Source: Clostridiales bacterium Firm_09 (GTDB taxonomy: Bacteria; Bacillota; Clostridia; Christensenellales; DTU072). From it: DNA of 64,000 nt. Shown piece by piece: positions 32,470 to 53,550 of this stretch. The stretch is taken from contig LVAO01000004.1 in assembly GCA_001604065.1 (NCBI GenBank), positions 1-64,000 on the forward strand, written 5' to 3'. Position numbers and translations under genes: made by a program. The notes beneath the pieces are model-generated. The model was not told where the DNA came from. It saw only the letters and a program-made list of their open reading frames with translations, and did not search any database. Every line of letters starts with the position of its first letter. Within the stretch, counting starts at the first letter, position 1.

Positions 32470-35172
32470 TTATCTGAAATACCGGATGCCGTTTCCGAAC
32501 AACTGCAAATCATAATTTTCTCCGGCATTCAGCACGTCTGCCACTTTGTAGTTATGTCCTGCCGCTCCGAAGATTCTGCCGTCCGGCGAACACAGGGACT
32601 CTATCGCAGCGGTATTGCCTGACGGATTATACGGAGCGGACAATGCCGGCCCACCTTCAGGATCAATATATTGTGAACAAATCTGTTCTCCCCGGATTAA
32701 AGAAGCAAGTGCATTTTCTTCGACCGTCAGCCGGATGCCATTGCCCTGTGACAAGGCCGCAAAAACCGCACCCTCCCGGCAGGATGACAGCCAAGGAGAA
32801 CGCACTGAGGTTAATTTTGCACGGGCTATCCTCCCGAGCGGATGTTCATCCGTATTTCTGGTCAGAAGAAAGGATTGAGAGGTATTTTCCATATATCTTC
32901 CATAAGGCAAAAAACCCAGCTCAATCAGGCTGTAAAAAGCTTCTCCAAAAGCGAGAATCAAACCTTCCCTGCGATACAACAGTTCATGGATTGCATCCAT
33001 AACGACCGGTCGGGAGCAGAATTCTGTGATAATCTTTTTCATATCGGAATTCTTGTTGTACGCAGAAGAAAAAACAAGGATATCCGATTTTTCGATTCGT
33101 TTGCGTATTTCAATAAAAAAGTCACGCTCTCCCGGATTCAGAATATGGGCATCCACCGTTCCGCCGCATCCGATAAAGCTTCTTTCGATCCATCCCGCAG
33201 TTTGATCGAATACGGGAAGATAGACCACAGGAGAATATTTTTTTTGCCCGCTGTACAAATGCCCCGGCTTTCCATCGCCGGTCTGAATGATTGGCGCTTT
33301 CGGATTGAGGCAAGCCTGCCTGTCGTTCCGCTTGTGCATCTCGGATAACTTTACTTCTACTTCAGCCCCTTTGATCATTCCGCTTGCATCCGTAATGCCA
33401 AGATATTCCGATTCGATGCCGGACAATTCATTTATATCTTCTACACTTGCAATAAGGTCACCGTAACTGGGCTGTAGGATACCTGTATCTGCATTTGCAA
33501 GAGAAAACCCACAATTCTCCCCCAGACAGGATTTAATGATTTCGGACAATGCGCTTTGCTCTGCAGCGGATGCAGCCGTGATATTTCCGTTTTCGATATT
33601 GATGCTGACGGTTGTCAGGAGTTTCTTAAGATACTTAAAATCCGGCATTCCGTAAACATCTCTTTTCAAGGGAAGACGAAAAATCTTTTTTCCGGGTCGA
33701 TAGAGATTGGTAATAAGCTTATCCGTCTGCGCCACGCCGCCGGCAATAATATTCTTGATATTGTTGCCGGGCTCATTGGGGTCATTTGCAAACACGCCGC
33801 AAAACAAAGCGTTTCTGGCGTACATCACGCCAAGCCGATATAAAAATTCTTTGCCTTTATCTTTACCCGAATCCACATAGGGAAGATTGCAGTCTATACG
33901 GATGTGATTGGGCGCGACACCCGCCGCCACCAGCTTGCCCACGGCGGTCACAACCGAATAGACGCCTTCCAGAAACGGACTTTGAATAATGCCTTCAAAG
34001 CTTTGCGCCGACGTTAAAAAGGCCTTCTTGTCCTGTCGGACCGTACCGAATACCTGAGAAGGTGTCAATCTGTATTTCCCGCCATAAGGGATATAAACCA
34101 ATTTGCCGACATTGCTCAGATCCGTATCCTTTTCTTCCATGCGGGCTTCCGTATAGGCGGATACAATTGACCGTTTGGAAAGGCGTTTTGGCCCATGATA
34201 CGTGTCGATACCCAGAATATCGTGCATCATGGCATAATCAAACATTGTATATCCCAATAAAAAGGGAATCGGAAGATCCAGTACCCTCAGTCCTTCACAT
34301 TCGATTATGATATCCTTGCCGTTTGTTGTTTTTCCGATTTCAATATAGGAGTAACCGTATTTGTCCAGCACAGGACTCAGCCTTTTCAGACCTCCGCTGA
34401 TAAGTGCCGCCACAACTGCGGCGCGATCACCGACAAGCAGAGCGTCAAAAATTTCTTCTTTGGGATCAGAAAGTTTGCAGCCTGTGCCGATATCCGTCAA
34501 TGCCTTAAGTATCCCCCTTTCGCATATGGAGCATGCTGCAAAAGAATTCAGTTCATTGATCATAGAAAACGGAGCAATCTCCGGTGTCGGGATATCTGTG
34601 CGGGGTTTAAGAAATACCAGTTTTTTAAGAGCCTTCTTCGGTTTGTGTTTTTCTATATGATATCCCAGCGGTATGTTGTAAATACGGGAGAGAGAATTAA
34701 AAGGATTGACAACAAAAGAAGGTTGTGGTTCTTCCTCGTATGTTTTTTTTCGATCCGACTCACGCATAAGATAACAGCGGGCATAAACTGTGCGGACATC
34801 TTCAAGACATACGGGCCTATCGCTCCTTATTTCTTCCCGGAGCTGGTGATAGAGATTCAATGCAGCATGTGTATGAGGATTCCCGGAGATAAGCCCGAGT
34901 CTGCCGATACGCTCGGTTTCTCCCGCGCAGTCCAGTTTCCAAAAACCATCCAGTATCCGCAGTTCGAACAGCAATGGCTCACGATTCTCCTGCAAGAAAA
35001 ATTCTTTGACTTTTCTTCTCTTCTGAACTTCTGGAAAAATTGCGTGCAGATTGCAATAGGCATCCAGCTTTTGCTTGCTGAAACGCAAAAAACCCCGGAC
35101 TTCACGCAAGTCCGGCAGCTTTTTTTGCGACGTTTTGCCTCTGTTGTCTTTTTGTGAAAAAATCAGATTCAC
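32470..35172 (-). CDS. PurL (FGAM synthase)-derived protein lacking catalytic residues; putative pseudoenzyme
   Basis: Colinear similarity to clostridial PurL: SPFLEGVYSVVTAVGKLVAAG, RDVYGMPDFKYLKKLL, EGLILAFGEAFYSLIELGFLPYG, QICSQYIDPEGGPALSAPYNPSGNTAAIESLCSPDGRIFGAAGH; catalytic motifs replaced; GTG start abuts the upstream TAA stop. Confidence 0.8.
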   Translation of the reverse strand: MNLIFSQKDNRGKTSQKKLPDLREVRGFLRFSKQKLDAYCNLHAIFPEVQKRRKVKEFFLQENREPLLFELRILDGFWKLDCAGETERIGRLGLISGNPHTHAALNLYHQLREEIRSDRPVCLEDVRTVYARCYLMRESDRKKTYEEEPQPSFVVNPFNSLSRIYNIPLGYHIEKHKPKKALKKLVFLKPRTDIPTPEIAPFSMINELNSFAACSICERGILKALTDIGTGCKLSDPKEEIFDALLVGDRAAVVAALISGGLKRLSPVLDKYGYSYIEIGKTTNGKDIIIECEGLRVLDLPIPFLLGYTMFDYAMMHDILGIDTYHGPKRLSKRSIVSAYTEARMEEKDTDLSNVGKLVYIPYGGKYRLTPSQVFGTVRQDKKAFLTSAQSFEGIIQSPFLEGVYSVVTAVGKLVAAGVAPNHIRIDCNLPYVDSGKDKGKEFLYRLGVMYARNALFCGVFANDPNEPGNNIKNIIAGGVAQTDKLITNLYRPGKKIFRLPLKRDVYGMPDFKYLKKLLTTVSINIENGNITAASAAEQSALSEIIKSCLGENCGFSLANADTGILQPSYGDLIASVEDINELSGIESEYLGITDASGMIKGAEVEVKLSEMHKRNDRQACLNPKAPIIQTGDGKPGHLYSGQKKYSPVVYLPVFDQTAGWIERSFIGCGGTVDAHILNPGERDFFIEIRKRIEKSDILVFSSAYNKNSDMKKIITEFCSRPVVMDAIHELLYRREGLILAFGEAFYSLIELGFLPYGRYMENTSQSFLLTRNTDEHPLGRIARAKLTSVRSPWLSSCREGAVFAALSQGNGIRLTVEENALASLIRGEQICSQYIDPEGGPALSAPYNPSGNTAAIESLCSPDGRIFGAAGHNYKVADVLNAGENYDLQLFGNGIRYFR

Positions 35173-38100
35173 TTACCATGCTCCGGCCATGATTGCGGAT
35201 ACATCCAGGAGAATTTCTGATGTCTGCGGATGAACATAACGATTGAGATAAGCATTGCGAAGAAGCGGCGCAACATAAAGCACAGAACCAGAACTTATGC
35301 CGCTGAAGGCATTCAGCTCGATTTCTACAATCGTTTCCGCACGGATTTCTATGGATTTCAGATTCGCGCAGGCATTGAAAGCAAGGCTGCCTATCCTTTT
35401 TATTGCGCTGTCAAAACCAAATGTTATCGTTTCAAGCTGCAATGCGACAGCCTCCTGAGCAAACGCTTTGTCGGCGACCGTGCTGACGGAACTATCGATC
35501 ACAATAGACGTGACGCCGGACTGGTCAATATATCGGACAAGCACGTTGGCCAGAATAACTTGACCGGTACGGCCCGAAAGCCAACTTGTGCCATAGAAGG
35601 CATCTGCCCCGCAATGCTCAATATCATAAACAGCATCGGGATCCAACTCCAACGTTGAAAGTTTTGGCGATTCGTAAAATGCGCGTGACCCGATGTCTTT
35701 GAGCGAAGACGGCAGTTCTACAGAAACCAGATTGTCACATTCCCAAAATGCGCCTTTACCGATGGAAAGAATATTGGAGGCATCTTCAAAGACAACGCTT
35801 GCAAGACTGCCGCAAAGCGCAAACGCTTCTTGATTGATGCGTATTACCGAAGCCGGTATTGTCATCATGACGATACCGCCGTTTGCGGGACAACGGATGA
35901 GCGCAGCCATATCTTTTGTATAAAGCACTCCGCCTGAGACCGTAAAATAATCTGAAATGTTGTTGCGGATGATAAAGGATGTGATGCCGGTCAGTGAAGT
36001 GAAAGCGCCTTCTTCTATTGTCATCAGGCCGCTGCGGAGTTCTACTTCTCTTATATGGGAAACGCCGGCTGCGTTAAGTGCGTCGGCATAAACCGTCGTT
36101 ACGGGCAGTCCGTCATGCATGAGCGGTATGCGAAGCGTATCCTCACCTCCCACAGGATAAACATATCCCGAAACCGCATAGGCGTTTTGTCCCTCTATCA
36201 ATGTGTATTGGAGACCTTCGGAACCCGTTTCGTTGTCTATCCATTTGGCATAAAAAGTCAGATCGGAAGTCACCGTCAATACAGTGCCGATCAGGATTTT
36301 CGAACCTGCGCGATAGTCCTGACTTGTATACCAGCCGTCAAAACGTAAATCGAGTTCTTCTCCCGGAGCCTCCGGTACAAGCAGCACCAAAGGATTGACG
36401 GGAGAAGAAGTCAAGCTGTTTATATAAGCATTGGGATCAAAAGCCGTACCGTAATCGACGGTAAGAGGCAAACTGCTGCCGTACGTAATCTCATAAAAAG
36501 ATTTATGTTCGACTCCGTATTCGTAACTGACATTTTTATAGCGAATGATATGTTCGTTCGTGGTGACTGCCGCATAAAGAACGACATACGTCACATTATT
36601 TGCGATGACATAATTCTTCAGCTCCGTATAAAAATCCTTAGAAAAATCCCAGAGCGTTTTTGTATAATCATACCATTTGGTTGTGCCGTTATTGTATTGT
36701 GTCTGCCTGTATTTTTTGAAATCATATGCAGGTCTGGACGCCTGCGCGCCGGAAGAAACAGATTGGATCCAAATGGCATAGGCAGTAGAACGTTCATGAT
36801 TGACTTCGGGCGATATCGGGTCGATGACAGACTGCACATAGGGAAGATTGTAGCCGCTGTCCTCATTGATGGTATAAATAAGGTTTTGAGTATCGACAGT
36901 ATAATCAATCGTAAGATTATAATTGTCCGAACCGGCCAATGTATAATACGCGGGCATACAATAATAAACCGTGATATTCTTGGGCGTTGCTTTGAAATAC
37001 AGCGTGACGGACTGGGTGATGCGCGTATTGAAATCAAAAATCTTATCATTGTCGCGCGCTGCATTGGTATGCCATGTGCAGGTATAAACAAGCGGATTGT
37101 AAATCGCAGAAGAAATAACAATGGGAAGGACTTTTTCTCCGTATACGACGGTACGTATTATTGTGTCACCGTAACCGATGAAGTTGACCTGAAAGGATTT
37201 TGCAGTGTAGAATACAAAATACTCCTTGTTTTCGGTAACCGCAAGAGAAAAATTGGGATCCATGGCGACATCCGCCTGATACACCTTCCATATGGCATTA
37301 TACTTTAGGCTTTCGTTGACTTCTGTTGTGGAAGGATCATCCGGATAAAGAGGCGCTGCAGGCACCGTCGCAAGACGAGTATTATATTGCACCTCGATAA
37401 TTTGCTTATATTCTGAAGGAACCGCGGCGGCATTGCCATACTGATTGTACTGCTCTCTGGTGATGCTATAAAAAGTCAAGCTCATCATTTTGGCAGTGTA
37501 TTGAATATAGAACTTTTTCTGTGTCTTTATACCGGTAATGTTGGCGTACGGAAGCTCATCCTCCGTAGCAAAATCCATCCATTTCGCCGTATAAGCCGCC
37601 TCGGGATGCTGTGCATCATAAAAAACGGGGGGGATGTCGTCTCTTTGGAACGTGCCGTTGTACAGCACATCAAAACTTCTGTACACCGTCAGCTTGTCAG
37701 CCCGATAAAAAACCACGTTGACTTTATATTCTGTAAATTCGGCGTATACCGTTGTTCTTTCTGTAACGTTGGTATAGCTTCCGGAGCCGGATACCGTCCA
37801 GCCGGTGAACACATAGCGCACAGAGTTGAAGTCATAGGTGGAGCCGATAACATATTTTGTTGGCAGCACAGCAGATTTTCCGTATTCTATGATCTGTATG
37901 TTTTCGTATGCGCCGGTGATTGCGTTGATGAAACTTACCTCAAACGTGCGTTCGTCGCTCCATTGCGCATAAAAAGTGGTTACGACCGAAGAAAGAATAT
38001 AAGGATAATTTTGTGTGACGCTGAGTTTTGTGCCGGAACCGTTGGGATCCGTATACCAACCTTTGAACCGGAATCCGTCAAGCTTTGGAACAGGCAGTGA

Positions 38101-38589
38101 AATCAGTTTGTTGCCGACGAGAATCGATTCGTCGGCTTCCATAATGTTGGAGGCCACATCGTCAAAATACCCTCTCGCCGATGTGCCGTTTGCGCCCAAC
38201 AATTCATTGCAGTCAAAATAAACCTTATACACAACATCGTCTTGTCGGGCAGCGTTGACAATCACCTGAACGGGAAGTTTTTTATCTCTATAATTGATAA
38301 ATACGGTTTTTGCACCCTGAACTCTCAATTTGTTGATGTCCGCCGCAGAAAGCATGGTCTGGTCTGCATAAACTGTTTCCAATATATTGCCGGCATCGTC
38401 CACCACGGTAAATACGATTTTTGATAAATCGGGGTCCTTTCCCTCTTCAAAAACAAGATCGCTTGCAGAGGATACAAGTACAAGTCTGTCGCCGGATTGA
38501 TCTTCTGAAGTGCAGCCCGAAAGAAATGCGGCAAGCACCGCAACCAGAAGGATGGCAACCGGCAATAGCAATTTATACGTTCTTGTCAT
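35173..38589 (-). CDS. Large surface lipoprotein with InlB B-repeats and BspA/LRR_5-like C-terminal region
   Basis: Lipobox FLSGCTS; repeats such as FRFKGWYTDPNGSGTKL...TTFYAQW, LRFDGWYTSQDYRAGSKI..LTFYAKW; LRR_5-like IGKGAFWECDNLVSVELPSSLKDIGSRAFYES. Confidence 0.85.
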   Translation of the reverse strand: MTRTYKLLLPVAILLVAVLAAFLSGCTSEDQSGDRLVLVSSASDLVFEEGKDPDLSKIVFTVVDDAGNILETVYADQTMLSAADINKLRVQGAKTVFINYRDKKLPVQVIVNAARQDDVVYKVYFDCNELLGANGTSARGYFDDVASNIMEADESILVGNKLISLPVPKLDGFRFKGWYTDPNGSGTKLSVTQNYPYILSSVVTTFYAQWSDERTFEVSFINAITGAYENIQIIEYGKSAVLPTKYVIGSTYDFNSVRYVFTGWTVSGSGSYTNVTERTTVYAEFTEYKVNVVFYRADKLTVYRSFDVLYNGTFQRDDIPPVFYDAQHPEAAYTAKWMDFATEDELPYANITGIKTQKKFYIQYTAKMMSLTFYSITREQYNQYGNAAAVPSEYKQIIEVQYNTRLATVPAAPLYPDDPSTTEVNESLKYNAIWKVYQADVAMDPNFSLAVTENKEYFVFYTAKSFQVNFIGYGDTIIRTVVYGEKVLPIVISSAIYNPLVYTCTWHTNAARDNDKIFDFNTRITQSVTLYFKATPKNITVYYCMPAYYTLAGSDNYNLTIDYTVDTQNLIYTINEDSGYNLPYVQSVIDPISPEVNHERSTAYAIWIQSVSSGAQASRPAYDFKKYRQTQYNNGTTKWYDYTKTLWDFSKDFYTELKNYVIANNVTYVVLYAAVTTNEHIIRYKNVSYEYGVEHKSFYEITYGSSLPLTVDYGTAFDPNAYINSLTSSPVNPLVLLVPEAPGEELDLRFDGWYTSQDYRAGSKILIGTVLTVTSDLTFYAKWIDNETGSEGLQYTLIEGQNAYAVSGYVYPVGGEDTLRIPLMHDGLPVTTVYADALNAAGVSHIREVELRSGLMTIEEGAFTSLTGITSFIIRNNISDYFTVSGGVLYTKDMAALIRCPANGGIVMMTIPASVIRINQEAFALCGSLASVVFEDASNILSIGKGAFWECDNLVSVELPSSLKDIGSRAFYESPKLSTLELDPDAVYDIEHCGADAFYGTSWLSGRTGQVILANVLVRYIDQSGVTSIVIDSSVSTVADKAFAQEAVALQLETITFGFDSAIKRIGSLAFNACANLKSIEIRAETIVEIELNAFSGISSGSVLYVAPLLRNAYLNRYVHPQTSEILLDVSAIMAGAW

Positions 38590-38717
38590 AATGGCACCTG
38601 CTTTACAAAAATCTACACATCCAATATATCACTACAGACCATAAAAGTCAATATACAATATAAATGCGCGCATAAATATAATATATTATCAAGATTGCCA
38701 TAGGCCAGGTATGCGGA

Positions 38718-38756
38718 ATAAAAACGAAAAAATAAGGCGTCCGCCGGGACGCCTTA
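38718..38756 (-). terminator. Intrinsic terminator downstream of pnp
   Basis: minus strand AAGGCGTCC-CGGC-GGACGCCTT followed by ATTTTTTCGTTTTT. Confidence 0.85.
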
Positions 38757-38793
38757 CATCACATGGAATTCATTTCGGATCCATGAATCTTCA

Positions 38794-40878
38794 TTAATAT
38801 TTCTTGACCAACTTGAAGTCCACTCTTCCTTTCTCATCGATCTTGATGCACTTGACGCGCACCCTGTCGCCGATATTGACCACATCTTCCACCTTCTCGA
38901 CTCTCTTATTGGAAAGTTTGCTGATGTGAATCATGCCGTCCCTGCCGGGAGCATATTCGACAAAAGCGCCGAAAGCGAGGATGCGCGCAACGGTGCCGTC
39001 AAATTCATCATCAATTGCGGGTTCGAACACTATGGCATTGATGATTGACATTGCTCTCTCCGCTGCGGCACTGTCGGTTGCGGCAATGAACACCTTGCCG
39101 TCGTCGCTGATATCAATCTTGACACCGGTTTCTTCGATGATTTTGTTGATTACTTTGCCTCCGCTGCCGATGACATCGCGAATCTTATCCGGATCAATTA
39201 CAAAGGAAGTAATTTTGGGGGCATAAGGACTCATATTTTTGCGGGGAGCCGGCAGAACCTCAAGCATTTTTTCAAGAATCTGAAGTCTTCCTTGTCTTGC
39301 CTGTTCGAGCGCGGTGCGGAGAATCGTTTCATTGATGCCCTTTATCTTGATGTCCATCTGGATTGCCGTAATACCGTTTTTGGTACCCGCAACTTTAAAA
39401 TCCATATCGCCAAAGAAATCTTCGAGTCCTTGGATATCGGACATGATATGCAGCTTGTTGTTGACATCGTCCTTGATGAGGCCCATTGCAATGCCTGCCA
39501 CGGGAGCCTTGATCGGAACGCCGGCATCCATCAGCGCAAGGGTAGAACCGCAAACGCTTGCCTGAGAGGTAGAACCGTTGCTTGAGATAACCTCGGACAC
39601 CGTCCGGATGGCATACGGGAACTCTTCTTCTGAAGGAAGCACGGGCTCCAATGCTCTCTCGGCAAGCGCACCGTGTCCAATTTCTCTTCTCCCGGGTGTC
39701 TTGAGCGATTTGGCTTCGCCCGTGCTATAAGGAGGCATATTGTAATGGTGCATATATCTCTTGAAAACATCGTCATCGATGCCTTCAAGTTTCTGCACTT
39801 CGGAAATCGTTCCGAGCGTAGCGGTAGTCAGAACCTGTGTTTGCCCTCTCGTAAACACGGCGCTGCCGTGCACTCTCGGCAGAATGCCGACTTCGCACCA
39901 GATGGGGCGGATTTCTGTAAGCGTTCTGCCATCGGGACGGACACCCTTATCGGCAATCATAGCACGGACGCATTCTTTCTTCATTGCATACAACACGTCC
40001 GCGATGTCTCTGGCATTATCGGGATAGATATCAGCAAAGTGAGCAAAAATATCGGCTTCGATCTCTTCTTCTCTCTTCTCACGCTCTTGCCTGTCAAAAG
40101 TATCAAACATATAATTAACTTTGTCTTTTGCATATTCTTTGACAGCCGCTTCGATTTCTTCCGGTGCGTGATGGAATTCGATTTCTTTTTTGGGTTTGCC
40201 GACCTTTGCTTGAATTTCTTCAATAAAGGCAACAATCTTCTTTATTTCTTCGTGGCCAAAGAGAATGGCGTCCAGCATTTCTGCTTCGCTGATTTCGTTC
40301 GCACCGGCCTCAACCATCATGATTGCGTCCTTCGTTCCGCTTAAAAAAAGGTTGAGACGCGATCTGTCTCTTTGCTCGTTGTCGGGATTGATGACATATT
40401 TGCCGTCCACATAGCCAACAACAACCGATCCTGTCGGTCCGTTGAAAGGAATATCCGATATGGAAAGCGCAACCGAACTGCCAATCATACCGAAAACTTC
40501 GGGCGGGATATTGGTATCTACGGACAGAGCTGTCGCAACAACGGCGACATCGTTGTACAATCCTTTGGGAAATAAGGGACGTATGGGTCTGTCAATCAAT
40601 CTAGATACGAGGATTGCCTTATCGCTCGGACGACCTTCCCTCTTTTTGAATCCGCCGGGAATTTTGCCGACGGCATACATTTTTTCTTCAAAATCCACGC
40701 CAAGAGGAAAGAAATCCATACCCTCTCTTGGTTTTTTTGACATGGTGACGTTGGTCATGACGACGGTATCGCCGCATCTGATAAAGCATTCGCCGTTACT
40801 TTGAGAGCAGTAGCCGCCGATTTCCACACTGACTTCGCGGCCCCCTATTGTAGTCTTGAAAATTGTGCTTTCTTTCAT
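38794..40878 (-). CDS. pnp: Polyribonucleotide nucleotidyltransferase (PNPase)
   Basis: RPSDKAILVSRLIDRPIRPLFP, RREIGHGALAERAL, KH GSGGKVINKIIEETG and S1 domain; start at MKESTIF. Confidence 0.96.
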   Translation of the reverse strand: MKESTIFKTTIGGREVSVEIGGYCSQSNGECFIRCGDTVVMTNVTMSKKPREGMDFFPLGVDFEEKMYAVGKIPGGFKKREGRPSDKAILVSRLIDRPIRPLFPKGLYNDVAVVATALSVDTNIPPEVFGMIGSSVALSISDIPFNGPTGSVVVGYVDGKYVINPDNEQRDRSRLNLFLSGTKDAIMMVEAGANEISEAEMLDAILFGHEEIKKIVAFIEEIQAKVGKPKKEIEFHHAPEEIEAAVKEYAKDKVNYMFDTFDRQEREKREEEIEADIFAHFADIYPDNARDIADVLYAMKKECVRAMIADKGVRPDGRTLTEIRPIWCEVGILPRVHGSAVFTRGQTQVLTTATLGTISEVQKLEGIDDDVFKRYMHHYNMPPYSTGEAKSLKTPGRREIGHGALAERALEPVLPSEEEFPYAIRTVSEVISSNGSTSQASVCGSTLALMDAGVPIKAPVAGIAMGLIKDDVNNKLHIMSDIQGLEDFFGDMDFKVAGTKNGITAIQMDIKIKGINETILRTALEQARQGRLQILEKMLEVLPAPRKNMSPYAPKITSFVIDPDKIRDVIGSGGKVINKIIEETGVKIDISDDGKVFIAATDSAAAERAMSIINAIVFEPAIDDEFDGTVARILAFGAFVEYAPGRDGMIHISKLSNKRVEKVEDVVNIGDRVRVKCIKIDEKGRVDFKLVKKY

Positions 40879-41064
40879 GTTACCTCCTGTTTCCGTCCTT
40901 GGAAACGACATATATATTTTTTGTTTTGAAACCGAAAAAGAAAGAAATATGTATACGCAAAAAAATGCTGCCGGCGCCGTTGCTCTTCGCGGGGATCCGC
41001 TGTTGTTTTTTACCAACCGCTTATTATATAAAAGGTTCGTAAAAAATAACCCGGTTCCCCGTTG

Positions 41065-46173: not shown

Positions 46174-49100
46174 TTACAGCGTGCTGATATCGATTAAATA
46201 AACGCCTTCGCCGCAGGACACATACGGCAGATTTTTATGCTTGGCGCTGTAAATAAACGCCCCGATGTCTTCGCTGTTGCAGACAACTTCTGCATAGACC
46301 CTGCCGAGATTCTTATAATAATCCAAAACAGCCGCCATTTCTGTTGTGGTGTCTGCTATAAGGTCATATCCGCCGCCGATTGATACGGAAGAATAATAAT
46401 TGTATACGCCTGCCGCAAGGTCCGCCACACCCGGCGTAGTCCAGTTGATGTATTCCGTACGGGGCTGTGACGCATAAGAAAATGCAGCTGCATCCGATAT
46501 CAGCAGCCATTGATGTCTCATCGCATAATATGTTGCCGTACCTGCGGTAAATCTCATGCGCGCCCAGGTTGCATCAACCACAAACCATTCGCCGTCAATT
46601 TTCACCTTGTTCCATGCGTGATTCTCGCCTGCCCACCCGGTTACTTCTTTGCATTCGATTCCCTCAATCATGCACATGAGCTTGAAGGCGCTTGCATATC
46701 CGTCACATACCGCAACCCTATTGCCGGCATTCCAGAAGACACCGTACAATGAGAAGCAGTCAAGACTCTTAATGATGCCCTCGACGGATTCGACAAGCTC
46801 GTTTTTGCTTGTAGCGCTGTCTTTTGCCGCAAGCAGCGCCGCTTCGAAATCTGCATTCCAGCCGTTTGCGTTCACCGCGGATAGGATTGCCGTCTTTGCC
46901 GAAGCCAACGACGGTGCGGCCGCGATGTCGTTCTGAAGCGCCATGATGTCCAAGGCGGCATTGTCATACGTAACATGGATAGCCAGCCATTCGTATATTA
47001 TAGCCACTTTCTGGTAATCGGTCAAATCATTATCAATGTAGAGTCCACAGATTTGGCGCGCCGCAAGATAAATATCTTCTGCGTCAGAACCGCCGTCGGG
47101 GAACGACGGCCTGACCCCATAGGGAAGGTTATCCAGTTCGTACACGCTGTCAATCAGTTCTGTACGGGACAGGCTGTCAATGGCAAAAGAAGTTTCGGGC
47201 ACCGCAAGCGGCATCAATGCGCTGCCGTCCGCCAGCGAATGCGCAGTCTGTCCTGTCGCGTACCTCTGATTCTGGTCACACCTCAATGTGAATTGGATTG
47301 TGGCAATCTGACCTGTCTGCGAATGAAAGTATCCATAATTATAAATAAAGCTCAGAGATCCGGCCGCATCGGTCAATGCCTCGTTGTCGAATGGAAATTG
47401 TTCACTGATATAAAATTTTTTTTGCACATAACCAAAGGGCTTGTCCGGATTGTCCTTAATCAGGTTGTCCTCATCCAGAGAAAGCTGGGCAAGATATGCA
47501 AATGCGGCATTCAGTTCGCTCTGATCGGCAATGTAGTAATCATAACGATAGCCGTTATAAGTAAAGGCATCCGATAAATAAGACAATGCCGGAGTCAGAA
47601 TGGGCAGCATAAAACTTCCTGTTTTGCCTGTTTCGTCGCATTTTACCTCCAAGGTATGCGTCACACTTTTTGCAAGGGCAGGGATTGAATCGCCGCTCAT
47701 GCAAGGCAGATACGGACCTCCGTCAATGCGATAAGAAAATGTCGTCGGCTTATCATAATCGCAATCAAACAGAATGGTGTATTCTCCCGGGTCAGAATCC
47801 AGATCCAATTTTACATGATACGGCGCGGCCTCGCTGTCGAAAACAGTCCCTTCTATGATTTCGGAAGCGCCGTCTTCATAAACAATCAGATAAGGGTATG
47901 TTCCGCCTTTTTTTGCGGTCAGATAGGATTCTTCTAGGACAATTATGCTTTCGGCAGCACGTATGCTGTAATCGTCCTCCGTAATGCCGCTCCCATGCAT
48001 CATGACAGCCGTCCGTGAAGAATTGTAATAAATGCTAAGGTCCCCGCCGGTGTTTTTATCATAGACAAAGCTGTTCGAAAATCCGAGAACCAGCGGAAAG
48101 CTTGCCATAATATATCTCCCCGTCGATTCAAACGTATAGGTCCCCGCAGGAATCCTGGCGAGATCCTCTGCGGACAGAGTAAGTGTTTTTTTGTCCGGAC
48201 TGTATGTCGCATCCACCGCAACGCTCACCGGGATTCCGCCGGCATCCAATATACGGAACGATACAACGTCAAACAAAAAGGAAACTTCGAAATCTTCGGA
48301 TGAAGAAAGATTGAAAAACTGCTCTTCATAGATTCCGTTGTTGAAGATCGCTCTGTTTCCGCACGTCCAGTTGCCGTCCCATCCCGACGGGATGTCATCG
48401 GCCGTACGCATAGAATACAGAACAATATCCGCCGATGCAGGAAACGCATTCGGACCGATATTCACAACCGAAAAGGGAATCACCGCTTCTTCAAGGCCGG
48501 TGCAGGATGCAAACGCGCCGCTTCCTATCGTCAAGACGGAGTTCTGTATAACTAAGGATTCGATGATATGCTCATTATGGCTTCCTGTAAAAGCAACAGA
48601 ACTCACGGGCCTGCCGTTATAGTACATCGCCAGGATGACTTCGGATTCGGAGCCATCATAGCCCGTTGCCCTGTAGGTATCCGCATAATCGCCGGCGGAG
48701 ATGTACTCATAAAGAACGCCCGGCGTGCCTTCCAATGCCCATGACGGTTCCAGATAAGTGTCCCCCGCGGTTGTATACAGCGCGCGGGGGATATACTGTA
48801 TTCCGCCTTGCCTCTTCCAATATGCGAGCAGTCCGCCGGCGCTGACATCGATGCTTGAAAGCTCAAGCGCATAGGGCTGGTTATAAAGCACTTCAAAATA
48901 GTAGCCGCTGGACTCGTCCGACAGGATCTCTGCGGTTGCCGAAACGGGAACATATCCGGCATCGATTGGAATACCAAGATAAATTCTGTATTTGTTGGGC
49001 AGGAAACGCGCAAAAAACTGCAGATCTGACGCGCCGATTTGCGCCGGAACGGCACCGTCCGCTGCATCGCGCCATCCTGTAAAAGTATATCCCGTTCTGG

Positions 49101-49515
49101 CAGGATCGGATGCGGGCAAGGGAATGCTGCTGCCTTCTGTCAATTCAAAAACCGCAAACAGCTCTCCGCCTTCTTCTGTATAATAGGAAGCCGTAACTCT
49201 TTTCAGCCAGCGCGCATAAAGCTTTACATTGCTGTTTACACCGGCCAGCGACTGCACCGTAAACGGACGCTGCCATATATCCTTGTCATAATACCAGTCA
49301 TCAAACACATAGCCGGATTTTGAAGGTTCCGGAGGCAGCGTGATTGTATTTGTTCCCGGAGTTACATTGATTGTATGAATCGCGTCGCCGTCCACATAGA
49401 AGGTGATGGAATAGCTTGAAGAACCGGAACCAAGAAAATCGCAGGAAGTCAATCCAATCATGACAAACACGAACACAGCGGTTATCAGAAACATCCATAA
49501 TCCTTTCTTTTTCAT
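46174..49515 (-). CDS. Large lipoprotein with InlB B-repeats and C-terminal transglutaminase-like domain
   Basis: Lipobox IGLTSCD; YVFDDWYYDK..VKLYARW and YTFTGWRDAADG repeats; VAVCDGYASAFKLMCMIEGIECKEVTGWAGENHAWNKVKIDGEWFVVDATWA (Cys/His/Asp); start at MKKKGLW. Confidence 0.85.
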   Translation of the reverse strand: MKKKGLWMFLITAVFVFVMIGLTSCDFLGSGSSSYSITFYVDGDAIHTINVTPGTNTITLPPEPSKSGYVFDDWYYDKDIWQRPFTVQSLAGVNSNVKLYARWLKRVTASYYTEEGGELFAVFELTEGSSIPLPASDPARTGYTFTGWRDAADGAVPAQIGASDLQFFARFLPNKYRIYLGIPIDAGYVPVSATAEILSDESSGYYFEVLYNQPYALELSSIDVSAGGLLAYWKRQGGIQYIPRALYTTAGDTYLEPSWALEGTPGVLYEYISAGDYADTYRATGYDGSESEVILAMYYNGRPVSSVAFTGSHNEHIIESLVIQNSVLTIGSGAFASCTGLEEAVIPFSVVNIGPNAFPASADIVLYSMRTADDIPSGWDGNWTCGNRAIFNNGIYEEQFFNLSSSEDFEVSFLFDVVSFRILDAGGIPVSVAVDATYSPDKKTLTLSAEDLARIPAGTYTFESTGRYIMASFPLVLGFSNSFVYDKNTGGDLSIYYNSSRTAVMMHGSGITEDDYSIRAAESIIVLEESYLTAKKGGTYPYLIVYEDGASEIIEGTVFDSEAAPYHVKLDLDSDPGEYTILFDCDYDKPTTFSYRIDGGPYLPCMSGDSIPALAKSVTHTLEVKCDETGKTGSFMLPILTPALSYLSDAFTYNGYRYDYYIADQSELNAAFAYLAQLSLDEDNLIKDNPDKPFGYVQKKFYISEQFPFDNEALTDAAGSLSFIYNYGYFHSQTGQIATIQFTLRCDQNQRYATGQTAHSLADGSALMPLAVPETSFAIDSLSRTELIDSVYELDNLPYGVRPSFPDGGSDAEDIYLAARQICGLYIDNDLTDYQKVAIIYEWLAIHVTYDNAALDIMALQNDIAAAPSLASAKTAILSAVNANGWNADFEAALLAAKDSATSKNELVESVEGIIKSLDCFSLYGVFWNAGNRVAVCDGYASAFKLMCMIEGIECKEVTGWAGENHAWNKVKIDGEWFVVDATWARMRFTAGTATYYAMRHQWLLISDAAAFSYASQPRTEYINWTTPGVADLAAGVYNYYSSVSIGGGYDLIADTTTEMAAVLDYYKNLGRVYAEVVCNSEDIGAFIYSAKHKNLPYVSCGEGVYLIDISTL

Positions 49516-49640
49516 CTTTCTCTCCGTCCTTGTTGTTTGGTTTAAGTTTACCATAATTCCCTATGCATGACAAGAACAAATAATTGTCTGCCGGTATGCA
49601 AGCGGAAAAATACGCCCAAACTTTGATTGCATAGAATCCG

Positions 49641-49669: not shown

Positions 49670-49695
49670 TCAGGATGTATTCATTGGAGGGGCCT

Positions 49696-52600
49696 TTGAA
49701 TCCGATATACAAAAAATACAAAGAACGTTTTATACAGATAAGCGGCAGAAACCGCAGTCTTTTCCTGCGCGATATTGTCAAAAAATACAGTTATGACATC
49801 GGAGCAGTGATGGAAACCCGTTCGGATACCGACGAATTTCTGGATTTCCTATGGCACGGCAGACGTTCTTTCACGCTGATGGACATGAAGATTGCCTCAA
49901 GAATGGCAAAAAACTGCGCTCCGGCAGAAGCAAATACCGTTGCGGCCGCCGTTGCGCCGGCAGAAACAGCCGGTAATGACGAAACGATAGAAATAAAAAC
50001 AAAAAAAGCGCGCAAGCCCGAAGCAGACAACATCTGCGAGACCCTGGCCTTGCAGCTCGGAAGTCTGCGCTATCTCAAGCGCGAAGAGGACGAACTGGAA
50101 AAAGAAACCGGCCGTGCCGAACTCTACATCGGTTATCCGTTTGTACTGGGCAGTCTTAATCCCGACACTCCCGTCTGCGCGCCTCTCATGTTGTTTCCTG
50201 CCATGCTGGAAATCGGAGCGGACGAAGCCGAAATCAGGCTGGTTCCCAACCAGCCGGTCATGCTCAACAAGGCATTCATTCTTGCCTATTCCAAAGAGAA
50301 GAATCTTGCGGTAGACAAACTGATTCAAGAATTCGATCCTCTTGCGGAGGACGCCTTTTCTACCGTCTGGGACGTTGCCGAATACCTGCAGAAAAACGGC
50401 TTCAGGCTGAACATCCAGAAAAGAAAGACTCTGATGCATTTTGAGCAGCCTCTCAGCTTCCCGTCAGAAATATTCGAAGTAAAAAATATGGCGGTCCTGG
50501 GGCGGTTTCCGCTTGCCAATTCGATTTACAACGATTATCTGGCTTTGGAGAAGGACAATCTTTCCACTCCGTCCATTCAGGCCCTTCTTTCCGGCAGACC
50601 GCAGGAAAATCCCGCACCGCTCAAGAAACTCTTTTTACGAACCAGAAAAACACCGCAAAACGACAGTTTTTATGAGATAAATGATCTGGATTTCGCGCAG
50701 GAAGGCGCGCTGGCCCAGATAGCAAAAAAAGATAATATCGTCATTTACGGGCCTCCCGGCACGGGCAAATCCCAAACGATTGTCAATATCATCAGCGACG
50801 CGCTTTGCAAAAACAAACGCGTGCTCGTTGTAAGCCAGAAACGCGCTGCGCTGGATGTCGTTTTCAACCGTCTCGGCCGATTGAACGATAAAGCAATGCT
50901 GATACCGGATCCGGAAAAGGAGAAACTTGCCTTTTTCGAGCGCCTGCGCACAATGCATGTAAAAAGCGCTTCCACGGATTATGACGAAACCAGCCGCCGT
51001 CACAAAAATGTCGAAATCGATATCAACCGCGAAATTGCCGTACTCCAGTCCATCAGCGACGCTTTGTTTACAGAAAGACCTTTCGGACTGACATTGCAGG
51101 AAATGTATGCGGCAAGCTACAATATCGGCCGCGAAAGCGATGACTACAAGCTGTATGAAAAAATGAAGCGCACCGGCATTCTGCGGCGGCGTTATCCCGA
51201 ACTGAAAGAAGATATCCGGCTCATCAAGGACAAGCAGCTTGATATTCTGTATCTGCGCCATCTGAATCTCGTCAAAGAAAACGAGATGATCGTTCACATC
51301 CTTCCCGACATAGATCTTCATAAGCTAAAACAGGCAAAGGTCTTCCTTGCCGATCTTCTCAAAAAAGAGCTTGTGCCGTTCAACACTGCGCGTTATCCTT
51401 ACAGCCGTTATCTGACCACCTTTTATCTTGAACAAGCCGTTGCCGATCGTGCTTCAATCAGACGTGTCGCCGACATTGTCACCAGGATGGAGCACCCCAC
51501 GCTTTCCGCCCTTCTGCAAGCATCGGCGTTCCCCCTCCTTTGGCCTCTGTATCCGTTTTTACGCATCCGATACGAAAACTATCGTGAAAATGTCAAAATC
51601 GACCTCCATATCGGCAAAGAAGCCCTGGAGAACTACGAGTCCGATTATAAGCTTCTTTCTTCCGTCCTGGACCAGAAGGGTTATGCGCTGGCAATCGGAG
51701 GACTGATCAACGGCAATGCCAATTTTCTCCGCAAGCTGCTTGACGCTTTGGACAACTATGTCGCAGTGCGCGATCTGAATACAGAAATTCTCAGCCTTTC
51801 TCCGCAGATACGGGAGCTGCTGGATTTTGCCTACGCAAATTCCGACGGAACCGCCGAAGGCTTCCGCATTGTGCTTGAAAAAATCATGCCGATACGAATT
51901 TATCACGAAATCGTTACCGATGACGGTACTGCGGACAAATTGCTTGCAAAGACCGTTGTTTTTGACGACCTCAGAAATCGCATCTCCGCATTGCAGGCCG
52001 ACAAGCGCGAGCTGTCCAGAAGCCTCGCCATGGACAGCTTTTCACGCGAATATGCAGAGTATTTCCGGACCTCTCCCGATGCCAAGGATTATCTTTACGA
52101 AATCCAGAAACAGCGCGGACTGAAGCCCATCCGCGTCATGTTTGAGCTTTTTGACAATTACCTCATGCGCCTCTTCCCCTGCTGGCTGCTCAGTCCGGAG
52201 GTTGTCAGCACCATACTGCCGCTCAAAACCGGTCTTTTTGATCTGGTTGTCTTTGACGAGGCAAGCCAGATATTCATCGAGTCCGCCATTCCCGCCATTT
52301 ACCGTGCCCAAAAAGTTGTGGTCGCCGGCGACAACAAGCAGCTCCGCCCCACTGCAGGCTTTGTCAGGCGCTATTTTGGGGACGACAGCCTTGCCAATAA
52401 CGGCATGGACCTGTCCACACAGGCGGCTCTTGAAGTCGAGAGCCTTCTGGATCTTGCGGCGGCGAGATATTATCCGGTGTATCTCTCCTATCATTACCGG
52501 AGCAATTATGTGGAGCTGATTGACTTCAGCAATGCCGCTTTTTATGAGAACAGGCTGCAGATTGCACCCAACATTTCAAAGAATTTTGAAAAAGCCCCCA

Positions 52601-53550
52601 TTGAGCGCATCAAGGTGCGCGGAATATGGCAGAACCGGCACAATCACGAAGAGGCCGTAACCGTCATCAAACTGCTGCGCACCATTTTTCGCGAACGCAC
52701 GGAGGGTGAAAGCATTGGCATTGTCACCTTCAACGTCGAGCAAAAAGAATATATCGAAGACCTTCTGGACGAAGAATGCGCGCACAACAAAACCTTCGCA
52801 AGGCAGCTTGAAAACGAAAAGAACCGCATCGTAAACGGCGAAAACATCGGTTTGTTTGTAAAAAATCTGGAGAACGTTCAGGGCGAGGAGCGCGACATCA
52901 TCATTTTCAGCATCGGCTATGCCAAAAATGAAAATGACCGCATCGTCGCCCAGTACGGTTCCCTTTCGGTGGAAGGCGGCGAAAACCGTCTGAATGTCGC
53001 CATCACCCGTGCAAAGAAGAAAATTTATGTGATTACCAGCATCGAGCCGGAAGAGCTGGACAAAGCCGAAACCACCAAAAACAACGGCCCCAAACTTCTT
53101 CGCAAATATCTCCAGTATGCACGCGCAGTTTCAGAAAACAACACCGCAGAAATAAGACAATTATTGCTCTCCATGCATTCCAGAAACTGCGAGATCGATC
53201 CTGTCGGCGCCTACGAACAGCAGATCAAAGCGGCGCTGGAAAAAGCAGGCTATGAAGTCGATATCAATCTGGGCAATACGGATTACAAGCTTTCATTAGG
53301 CATTTATGACAAAGAGCTCGGCCGATATGTTTTGGGCATAGAGTGCGATTATCAGGCGTTTCATAACAGCGAAAGCGTATTGGAGCGCGACGTGTACCGC
53401 TTCAAATTCTTCGAAATACGCGGCTGGAAGATTGTTCGCGTCTGGTCCAGAGACTGGTGGCTTTCGCCCGCAAAGGTGCTTGCCGATCTCATTGCAACCA
53501 TCGAAAAACAAAAAAAGGTCCTGCGCACAAAAATGCAGAAGGACGCCTGA
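49696..53550 (+). CDS. SF1 (DNA2/NAM7-like) helicase with C-terminal Vsr/MTES_1575-like nuclease domain
   Basis: Walker A YGPPGTGKSQTIVNII, VVFDEASQIF, VVAGDNKQLRPT, RLNVAITRAKKKIYVIT; C-terminal GIECDYQAFHNSESVLERDVYRFKFFEIRGWKIVRVWSRDWW. TTG start at 49696 after GGAGGGG preferred over ATG 49675. Confidence 0.85.
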   Translation: MNPIYKKYKERFIQISGRNRSLFLRDIVKKYSYDIGAVMETRSDTDEFLDFLWHGRRSFTLMDMKIASRMAKNCAPAEANTVAAAVAPAETAGNDETIEIKTKKARKPEADNICETLALQLGSLRYLKREEDELEKETGRAELYIGYPFVLGSLNPDTPVCAPLMLFPAMLEIGADEAEIRLVPNQPVMLNKAFILAYSKEKNLAVDKLIQEFDPLAEDAFSTVWDVAEYLQKNGFRLNIQKRKTLMHFEQPLSFPSEIFEVKNMAVLGRFPLANSIYNDYLALEKDNLSTPSIQALLSGRPQENPAPLKKLFLRTRKTPQNDSFYEINDLDFAQEGALAQIAKKDNIVIYGPPGTGKSQTIVNIISDALCKNKRVLVVSQKRAALDVVFNRLGRLNDKAMLIPDPEKEKLAFFERLRTMHVKSASTDYDETSRRHKNVEIDINREIAVLQSISDALFTERPFGLTLQEMYAASYNIGRESDDYKLYEKMKRTGILRRRYPELKEDIRLIKDKQLDILYLRHLNLVKENEMIVHILPDIDLHKLKQAKVFLADLLKKELVPFNTARYPYSRYLTTFYLEQAVADRASIRRVADIVTRMEHPTLSALLQASAFPLLWPLYPFLRIRYENYRENVKIDLHIGKEALENYESDYKLLSSVLDQKGYALAIGGLINGNANFLRKLLDALDNYVAVRDLNTEILSLSPQIRELLDFAYANSDGTAEGFRIVLEKIMPIRIYHEIVTDDGTADKLLAKTVVFDDLRNRISALQADKRELSRSLAMDSFSREYAEYFRTSPDAKDYLYEIQKQRGLKPIRVMFELFDNYLMRLFPCWLLSPEVVSTILPLKTGLFDLVVFDEASQIFIESAIPAIYRAQKVVVAGDNKQLRPTAGFVRRYFGDDSLANNGMDLSTQAALEVESLLDLAAARYYPVYLSYHYRSNYVELIDFSNAAFYENRLQIAPNISKNFEKAPIERIKVRGIWQNRHNHEEAVTVIKLLRTIFRERTEGESIGIVTFNVEQKEYIEDLLDEECAHNKTFARQLENEKNRIVNGENIGLFVKNLENVQGEERDIIIFSIGYAKNENDRIVAQYGSLSVEGGENRLNVAITRAKKKIYVITSIEPEELDKAETTKNNGPKLLRKYLQYARAVSENNTAEIRQLLLSMHSRNCEIDPVGAYEQQIKAALEKAGYEVDINLGNTDYKLSLGIYDKELGRYVLGIECDYQAFHNSESVLERDVYRFKFFEIRGWKIVRVWSRDWWLSPAKVLADLIATIEKQKKVLRTKMQKDA

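Follow-up and report, generated by a model that had tools for sequence, protein, structure and literature searches.

The window analysed here, a stretch of 64,000 nucleotides of DNA from a group of uncultured, gut-type Clostridia, carries a gene for a protein that is almost certainly a pseudoenzyme derived from PurL, deprived of every known catalytic site and held under purifying selection for a non-catalytic role. PurL is among the best-studied purine enzymes and, in bacteria, is regarded as a pure catalyst. In the order to which the window's genome belongs, however, PurL has been converted into a pseudoenzyme on no fewer than two occasions, and probably on more. A dead PurL under selection across a family, and a purine operon deleted around a dead purL, suggest that this large scaffold has another function. 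No description of a PurL pseudoenzyme from bacteria came up in literature searches, and a search on PurL moonlighting returned nothing relevant. A preliminary description of the window, made by eye, had already pointed to the pseudoenzyme; the lipoprotein partner, the membrane protein c2, and the independent conversions in other families were absent from it.

Identity and Predicted Fold of Pseudo-PurL

The gene, hereafter pseudo-PurL, occupies positions 32470–35172 of the minus strand as an intact frame of 900 codons, with a GTG start directly 3' of the stop codon of a lipoprotein gene. This is exactly the 900-residue, PurL-derived product without a frameshift announced in the preliminary description, and profile and fold searches gave strong matches to the same effect. 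The protein matches the FGAM synthase model TIGR01857 in two stretches with 217 bits (E = 2.6e-64), without reaching the equivalog cut-off of 1057 bits, and GATase_5 with 84 bits, the cut-off there being 27. In a Foldseek search of the PDB with an AlphaFold2 model (mean pLDDT 76.7, pTM 0.75), the best 26 matches were PurL or PFAS, at E-values of about 1e-31 to 1e-33, in agreement with the ancestry proposed earlier. In a library of viral folds, the top matches were the vFGARATs of gammaherpesviruses; the contig setting of the gene is bacterial, among housekeeping genes, and the gene is not encoded by a gammaherpesvirus. By sequence and fold, pseudo-PurL belongs to the PurL/GATase_5 fold superfamily, an assignment that speaks of homology, not function. 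None of the PADLOC models matched it, and a role as an anti-phage defence protein was rejected on this ground.

The same genome encodes an active PurL (G000:C8:9568-13287) of 1244 amino acids, which scores 1600 bits against TIGR01857 and has every motif present. About 60 bases into the pseudo-PurL gene, a terminator-like hairpin with a T run is found at window positions 35095–35115; it might lower the expression of pseudo-PurL relative to the lipoprotein, or be due to chance.

Loss of Catalytic Sites and Domains

With the genome's own active PurL as the reference, the glutaminase triad Cys-His-Glu corresponds to Gly743, Gln809, and Asn811 in the window protein. The former nucleophile elbow, EGLILAFGEAFYSLIELGFLPYG (32899–32967, minus strand), has AFGEAFYS in place of GICNGFQA, Gly743 standing for the catalytic Cys. 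The segment of the former His-Glu dyad, LSQGNGIR (32731–32754, minus strand), has exchanged SHGEGRF for SQGNGIR, with Gln809 in the position of the His and Asn811 in that of the Glu. The former auxiliary nucleotide site is occupied by GVFANDPNEPG (33766–33798, minus strand), in which ANDPNEPG replaces GGKDSMSG. All these replacements had been proposed beforehand from peptides that we found within 1–3 bases of the positions given for them; intact catalytic residues were looked for after proper alignment, and the residues stay lost.

Two other statements in the preliminary description needed revision. The alignment to PurL had been called gap-free; it consists of residues 356–900, about 29–34% identical, and a separate stretch at residues 20–133, the first synthetase half being shorter by about 160 residues. 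The N-terminal KNETHNHP segment is indeed absent, but the loss is not confined to it: the N-terminal PurS-like domain is also gone, and TGRDGxGGATGSS, CNDFGAGG (DFGAGG), and GGKDSMSG are likewise gone or deleted.

These losses extend to the relatives: in a motif alignment of the 23 members of the pseudo-PurL family with at least 30 active PurLs, no member retains any of the motifs. The triad is lost in every pseudo-PurL of the window's family in which the glutaminase region is present, and the ATP/FGAR motifs (KNETHNHP, TGRDGxGGATGSS, and DFGAGG) are absent or deleted in all of them. At the elbow, the Cys has become mostly Gly, and in a few cases Ala, and the Asn mostly Glu, with the adjoining residues conserved.

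A different kind of loss is seen in three otherwise complete PurLs of the window's family (G011 L068:914-4606, G014 L069:1-3669, and G015 L059:1382-5104), which have kept all synthetase motifs and lost the glutaminase residues, the Cys being replaced by Ala, Gly, and Asp, respectively, and the His motif also changed. Judging from these motifs, they are possibly ammonia-dependent FGAM synthases.

Conservation, Selection, and Phylogeny

A search with a profile of the paralogues (A1) found pseudo-PurL in 23 of the 40 genomes of the window's family, representing 8 of its 11 genera; outside this family, no genome in the order sample (n = 396 genomes) scores as high as a complete copy from the family. 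Complete copies have a frame open over 900–1036 codons, and the copy of G003 is truncated to 707 amino acids. Within the family, identity to the window protein is 20–42%.

Pseudo-PurL diverges much faster than active PurL, with a mean column identity of 0.27 versus 0.54. Selection was measured on relatives, the pair formed by the window genome and G001 being saturated: the Nei-Gojobori dN/dS is 0.07–0.12 for pseudo-PurL pairs with finite dS, values that are approximate because dS is 1.1–2.5, versus 0.065–0.116 for active PurL, taken from those pairs or similar ones. Relaxed selection, looked for in this way, was not found in the relatives. The earlier claim of a pseudoenzyme under selection is supported by the family alignment, the structure prediction, a dN/dS in relatives equal to that of active PurL, and a single conserved clade. 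The non-catalytic role proposed with it is almost certain; that this role is 'regulatory or structural' is something that we, too, can only infer.

Residues 481–610, the second AIRS-C-like half (33343–33732, minus strand), run counter to the remainder of the protein: column identity is 0.35 in pseudo-PurLs versus 0.31 in active PurLs, an extreme matched by only 16 of 859 circular windows. In addition, K517, Y590, D595, Y451, N530, and NPH98–100 are newly fixed in pseudo-PurLs and unconserved in active PurLs. The newly fixed residues and region 481–610 represent gained constraint, which is unlike a decaying gene, and this pattern of conservation makes residues 481–610 a candidate partner-binding surface.

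In a phylogeny that included the organism's active PurL, the pseudo-PurLs of the window's family form one clade (SH-aLRT 100) with long branches. A recent duplication of the PurL found in the same genome as the source of the clade, with the clade constrained to join the active PurLs of G000/G004, was weakly rejected (AU p = 0.037), and placements near G007/G015 or near the G005-type PurLs are indistinguishable (p = 0.32 and 0.24, respectively), long branches limiting the tree. The active PurLs of other family members (G023, G026, G013, and G019) fall in several separate places, which suggests that the purine operon has been horizontally replaced more than once. The absence of purL, purM, and purH from G003, G012, and G063 was set aside as a sign of purine independence, being at about chance level for incomplete genomes.

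The Lipoprotein Partner and the Layout of the Locus

The gene directly upstream of pseudo-PurL (35173–38589, minus strand) encodes a lipoprotein of 1138 amino acids with an LSGC lipobox signal peptide (identified by eye), InlB/Flg_new repeats, and C-terminal BspA-type LRR_5 repeats. A read-through fusion of the two products was rejected: the genes share a frame in the window but lie in different frames in most relatives. The next gene upstream is pnp, for polynucleotide phosphorylase (38794–41016, minus strand; named by eye from its sequence). Between pnp and the pair, a strong intrinsic-terminator-like hairpin of 11 pairs with a T run lies 3' of pnp (38732–38757, minus strand), followed by a promoter-like site, TTGACT-17-TATATT with a TG before the -10 (38623–38651, minus strand), which is a consensus match only. 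Together, the hairpin and the promoter-like site suggest that lipoprotein and pseudo-PurL would form a transcription unit of their own.

In 21 of the 23 genomes, pseudo-PurL is immediately preceded, within about 20 bases or with an overlap (mostly -4 to +17 nt), by a gene for a lipoprotein of ~1,100 amino acids. In G022, the two genes are at contig ends, in an arrangement consistent with the relatives, and in G009, pseudo-PurL has a different gene context and the lipoprotein is present as split pieces. The partner lipoproteins align end to end, with the lipobox Cys conserved, and, full-length, occur only in genomes with pseudo-PurL and in G002, a member of the window's genus that has kept the lipoprotein after rpsO-pnp and lost pseudo-PurL. 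The order pnp-lipoprotein-pseudo-PurL is common to G011, G017, and G014, from two other genera, and to G022 up to the contig end; G002 has the pnp-lipoprotein order alone.

In domain make-up (Flg_new and LRR_5 repeats), the partner is the same as surface lipoproteins of the BspA/InlB type, from which it is set apart as a full-length orthologous group of its own, one that is tied to pseudo-PurL. Related LRR/InlB-repeat proteins give 25–55 matches per genome in the window's family, without a PurL-like partner. The window also encodes a second large surface-type protein (46174–49554), which combines Flg_new and LRR_5 with a transglutaminase core, and, at 49675–53550, a helicase-nuclease of 1291 amino acids (DUF4011, AAA_11/12, MTES_1575). 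The latter is a relative of ProA and Hhe, two anti-phage proteins, but scores far below the cut-offs of both.

c2 and Other Conversions of PurL in the Order

In seven genomes of the window's family (G005, G006, G013, G014, G019, G059, and G062), pseudo-PurL is directly followed 3' by the gene of c2, a small membrane protein of ~170 amino acids related to DUF5673, whose Pfam cut-off is passed by the G294 and G390 copies. The predicted fold has three long helices and then a small beta domain, with only weak, PH/FERM-like matches in the PDB (E = 0.02). c2 also comes after pseudo-PurLs of other families (G294 and G076), as well as directly 3' of the active purL that ends purE-(C)-M-N-H-D-L operons in G007, G097, G070, and others; the position after active purL is the ancestral place of c2. 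All 44 genomes with c2 in the order sample (n = 396) have PurL or pseudo-PurL, versus 282 of 396 overall (hypergeometric 1e-7), without a single c2 on its own, in a co-occurrence that is phylogenetically non-independent, uncorrected for kinship, and partly a matter of operon co-inheritance.

In another family, two genomes of one genus, G294 and G311, are 94–96% complete and have neither purM nor a second PurL. Set against the sister genome G390, their gene order is unchanged apart from the deletion of purE, C, M, N, H, and D; what remains comprises the small gene k13, a purL that is catalytically dead, and c2 (in G311, purL and c2 are at two contig ends). The dead PurLs have 1023–1029 amino acids, no PurS domain, and elbow residues that differ from those of the window's family. 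They are 79% identical to each other, with a dN/dS of 0.22 at a dS of 0.60 over 1013 codons; for c2 of the same two genomes, dN/dS is 0.07. In the tree, these copies fall among the active PurLs of their genus, so the conversion was recent and took place in situ, and the retention of dead purL and c2 after the deletion of purE-C-M-N-H-D means that PurL was made a pseudoenzyme more than once in the order. Since a dead PurL is kept under selection in relatives that have otherwise deleted the purine pathway, PurL probably has a second, non-enzymatic job in these bacteria.

Further cases are G076, which has pseudo-PurL and then c2, and G249, with a degenerate full-length PurL adjoining parE-parC; both carry a second PurL, full-length in G076, and the tree is indecisive about one shared origin of these two and the window's family. 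Among high-quality genomes, PurL is found without purM in G051, G137, G294, and G311 only. Most genomes of the order without purM have also lost PurL, and the second function is therefore not universal. In G137, 99% complete and without purM, a PurL (L141:7720-11229) has intact glutaminase motifs and dead synthetase motifs, the opposite of what is seen in the PurLs of G011, G014, and G015.

Possible Roles of Pseudo-PurL

The reading we favour, while granting it somewhat less than an even chance, is that pseudo-PurL is a non-catalytic scaffold or adaptor acting from the cytoplasm at the membrane, with an ancestral partnership with c2 and a coupling to the lipoprotein in the window's family. In general terms, it can be rationalized as follows. 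(i) PurL of this order would have an extra, catalysis-independent partnership with c2. (ii) Some lineages would have dropped the enzyme activity and kept this partnership. (iii) In the window's family, pseudo-PurL would have become tightly coupled to the exported InlB/LRR-repeat lipoprotein, so that both are made together, and would serve some complex or process at the membrane in which the lipoprotein takes part. (iv) In the window's genus, c2 would have been lost later, leaving the lipoprotein pair alone. The membrane location and a physical contact between pseudo-PurL and either c2 or the lipoprotein are inferences. The lipoprotein is predicted outside the cell and pseudo-PurL inside, which makes direct contact between these two doubtful; the window genome, G001, and G002 have no c2, so the role in the window species cannot need it. 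Against an adaptor role, G002 keeps the lipoprotein without pseudo-PurL, and the G009 pseudo-PurL lies in another context. A broader proposal is more speculative still: PurL of the whole order may have a catalysis-independent envelope function through c2, and in one family also through a surface lipoprotein, which would explain its repeated conversion into a pure scaffold, once by deletion of the purine operon around purL.

The main rival to the adaptor is a regulatory partner that tunes active PurL or another purine enzyme. Dead paralogues often regulate their active relatives. Most genomes with pseudo-PurL also carry an active PurL on which it could act, and the vFGARATs, which bind host PFAS and redirect it, provide a viral precedent (PMC5691659). 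However, G294 and G311 have no other PurL to regulate or recruit and no purM, four family genomes (G002, G007, G008, and G021) have an active PurL without pseudo-PurL, the gene adjoins the lipoprotein and not purine genes, and pseudo-PurL diverges far more rapidly than the supposed partner, all of which makes such a regulator unlikely.

We give an equally small chance to a cytosolic factor for the targeting or folding of the coupled lipoprotein before or during export, or for the regulation of its expression. The almost constant adjacency of the two genes, tightly spaced in 21 of 23 genomes, would suit such a factor, as would the joint presence or absence of both genes except in G002 and G009, but the pseudo-PurLs of G294, G311, G076, and G249 have no such lipoprotein next to them, the many LRR/InlB-repeat proteins of each family genome do without a PurL-like partner, and G002 has the lipoprotein alone.

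Improbable, to a greater degree, is a neofunctionalized enzyme with a new catalytic or ligand site, for instance around the G-E-G that replaces the elbow Cys-Asn. The change of Cys to mostly Gly and Asn to mostly Glu between conserved neighbours, and the existence of residues conserved in pseudo-PurLs alone, could be read in this way; on the other hand, we noticed no group of conserved polar residues such as typically marks a new active site, the ATP/FGAR motifs were deleted rather than remodelled, and the elbow is different in G294 and G311. Finally, a decaying pseudogene whose stop codon is yet to come, for which fast protein evolution, the truncation in G003, and the loss in G002 could be cited, was rejected as extremely improbable given the low dN/dS in relatives, including the G294/G311 value at unsaturated dS, the frames open across 8 genera, and the gained constraint at residues 481–610. 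For a further function of the PurL scaffold, the gene order of G390 and G294 and the neighbouring c2 offer a direct, testable entry point.

Comparison with Known Systems

With the large-type FGAM synthase PurL (TIGR01857; StPurL, 1T3T), the window protein has a common fold over the linker, the second synthetase half, and the glutaminase domain. It differs from PurLs of the StPurL type in having no PurS-like domain, in the ~160 missing residues, and in the loss of the catalytic and auxiliary-nucleotide motifs. In the Zincore complex, SEPHS1 plays a non-catalytic role. This member of the PurM/AIRS superfamily is a fold match to pseudo-PurL and sits within a protein complex (9hjt); unlike pseudo-PurL, it is a single AIRS unit in a human nuclear complex and has no glutaminase domain.

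The nearest known case to the bacterial pseudo-PurL is that of the gammaherpesvirus vFGARATs. These proteins (EBV BNRF1, KSHV ORF75, and MHV68 ORF75A-C) derive from PurL/PFAS and act through protein contacts, some being enzymatically dead; those of KSHV and MHV68 are no longer active as enzymes and bring cellular FGARAT to RIG-I (PMC5691659). Like the vFGARATs, pseudo-PurL is a PurL homologue that has lost its catalytic residues and is kept by selection, as measured on its relatives. Unlike pseudo-PurL, the vFGARATs are viral tegument proteins of separate origin, with host immune targets and no link to a lipoprotein or c2. As gammaherpesviruses have also made PurL a pseudoenzyme, unrelated lineages have exploited the same scaffold.
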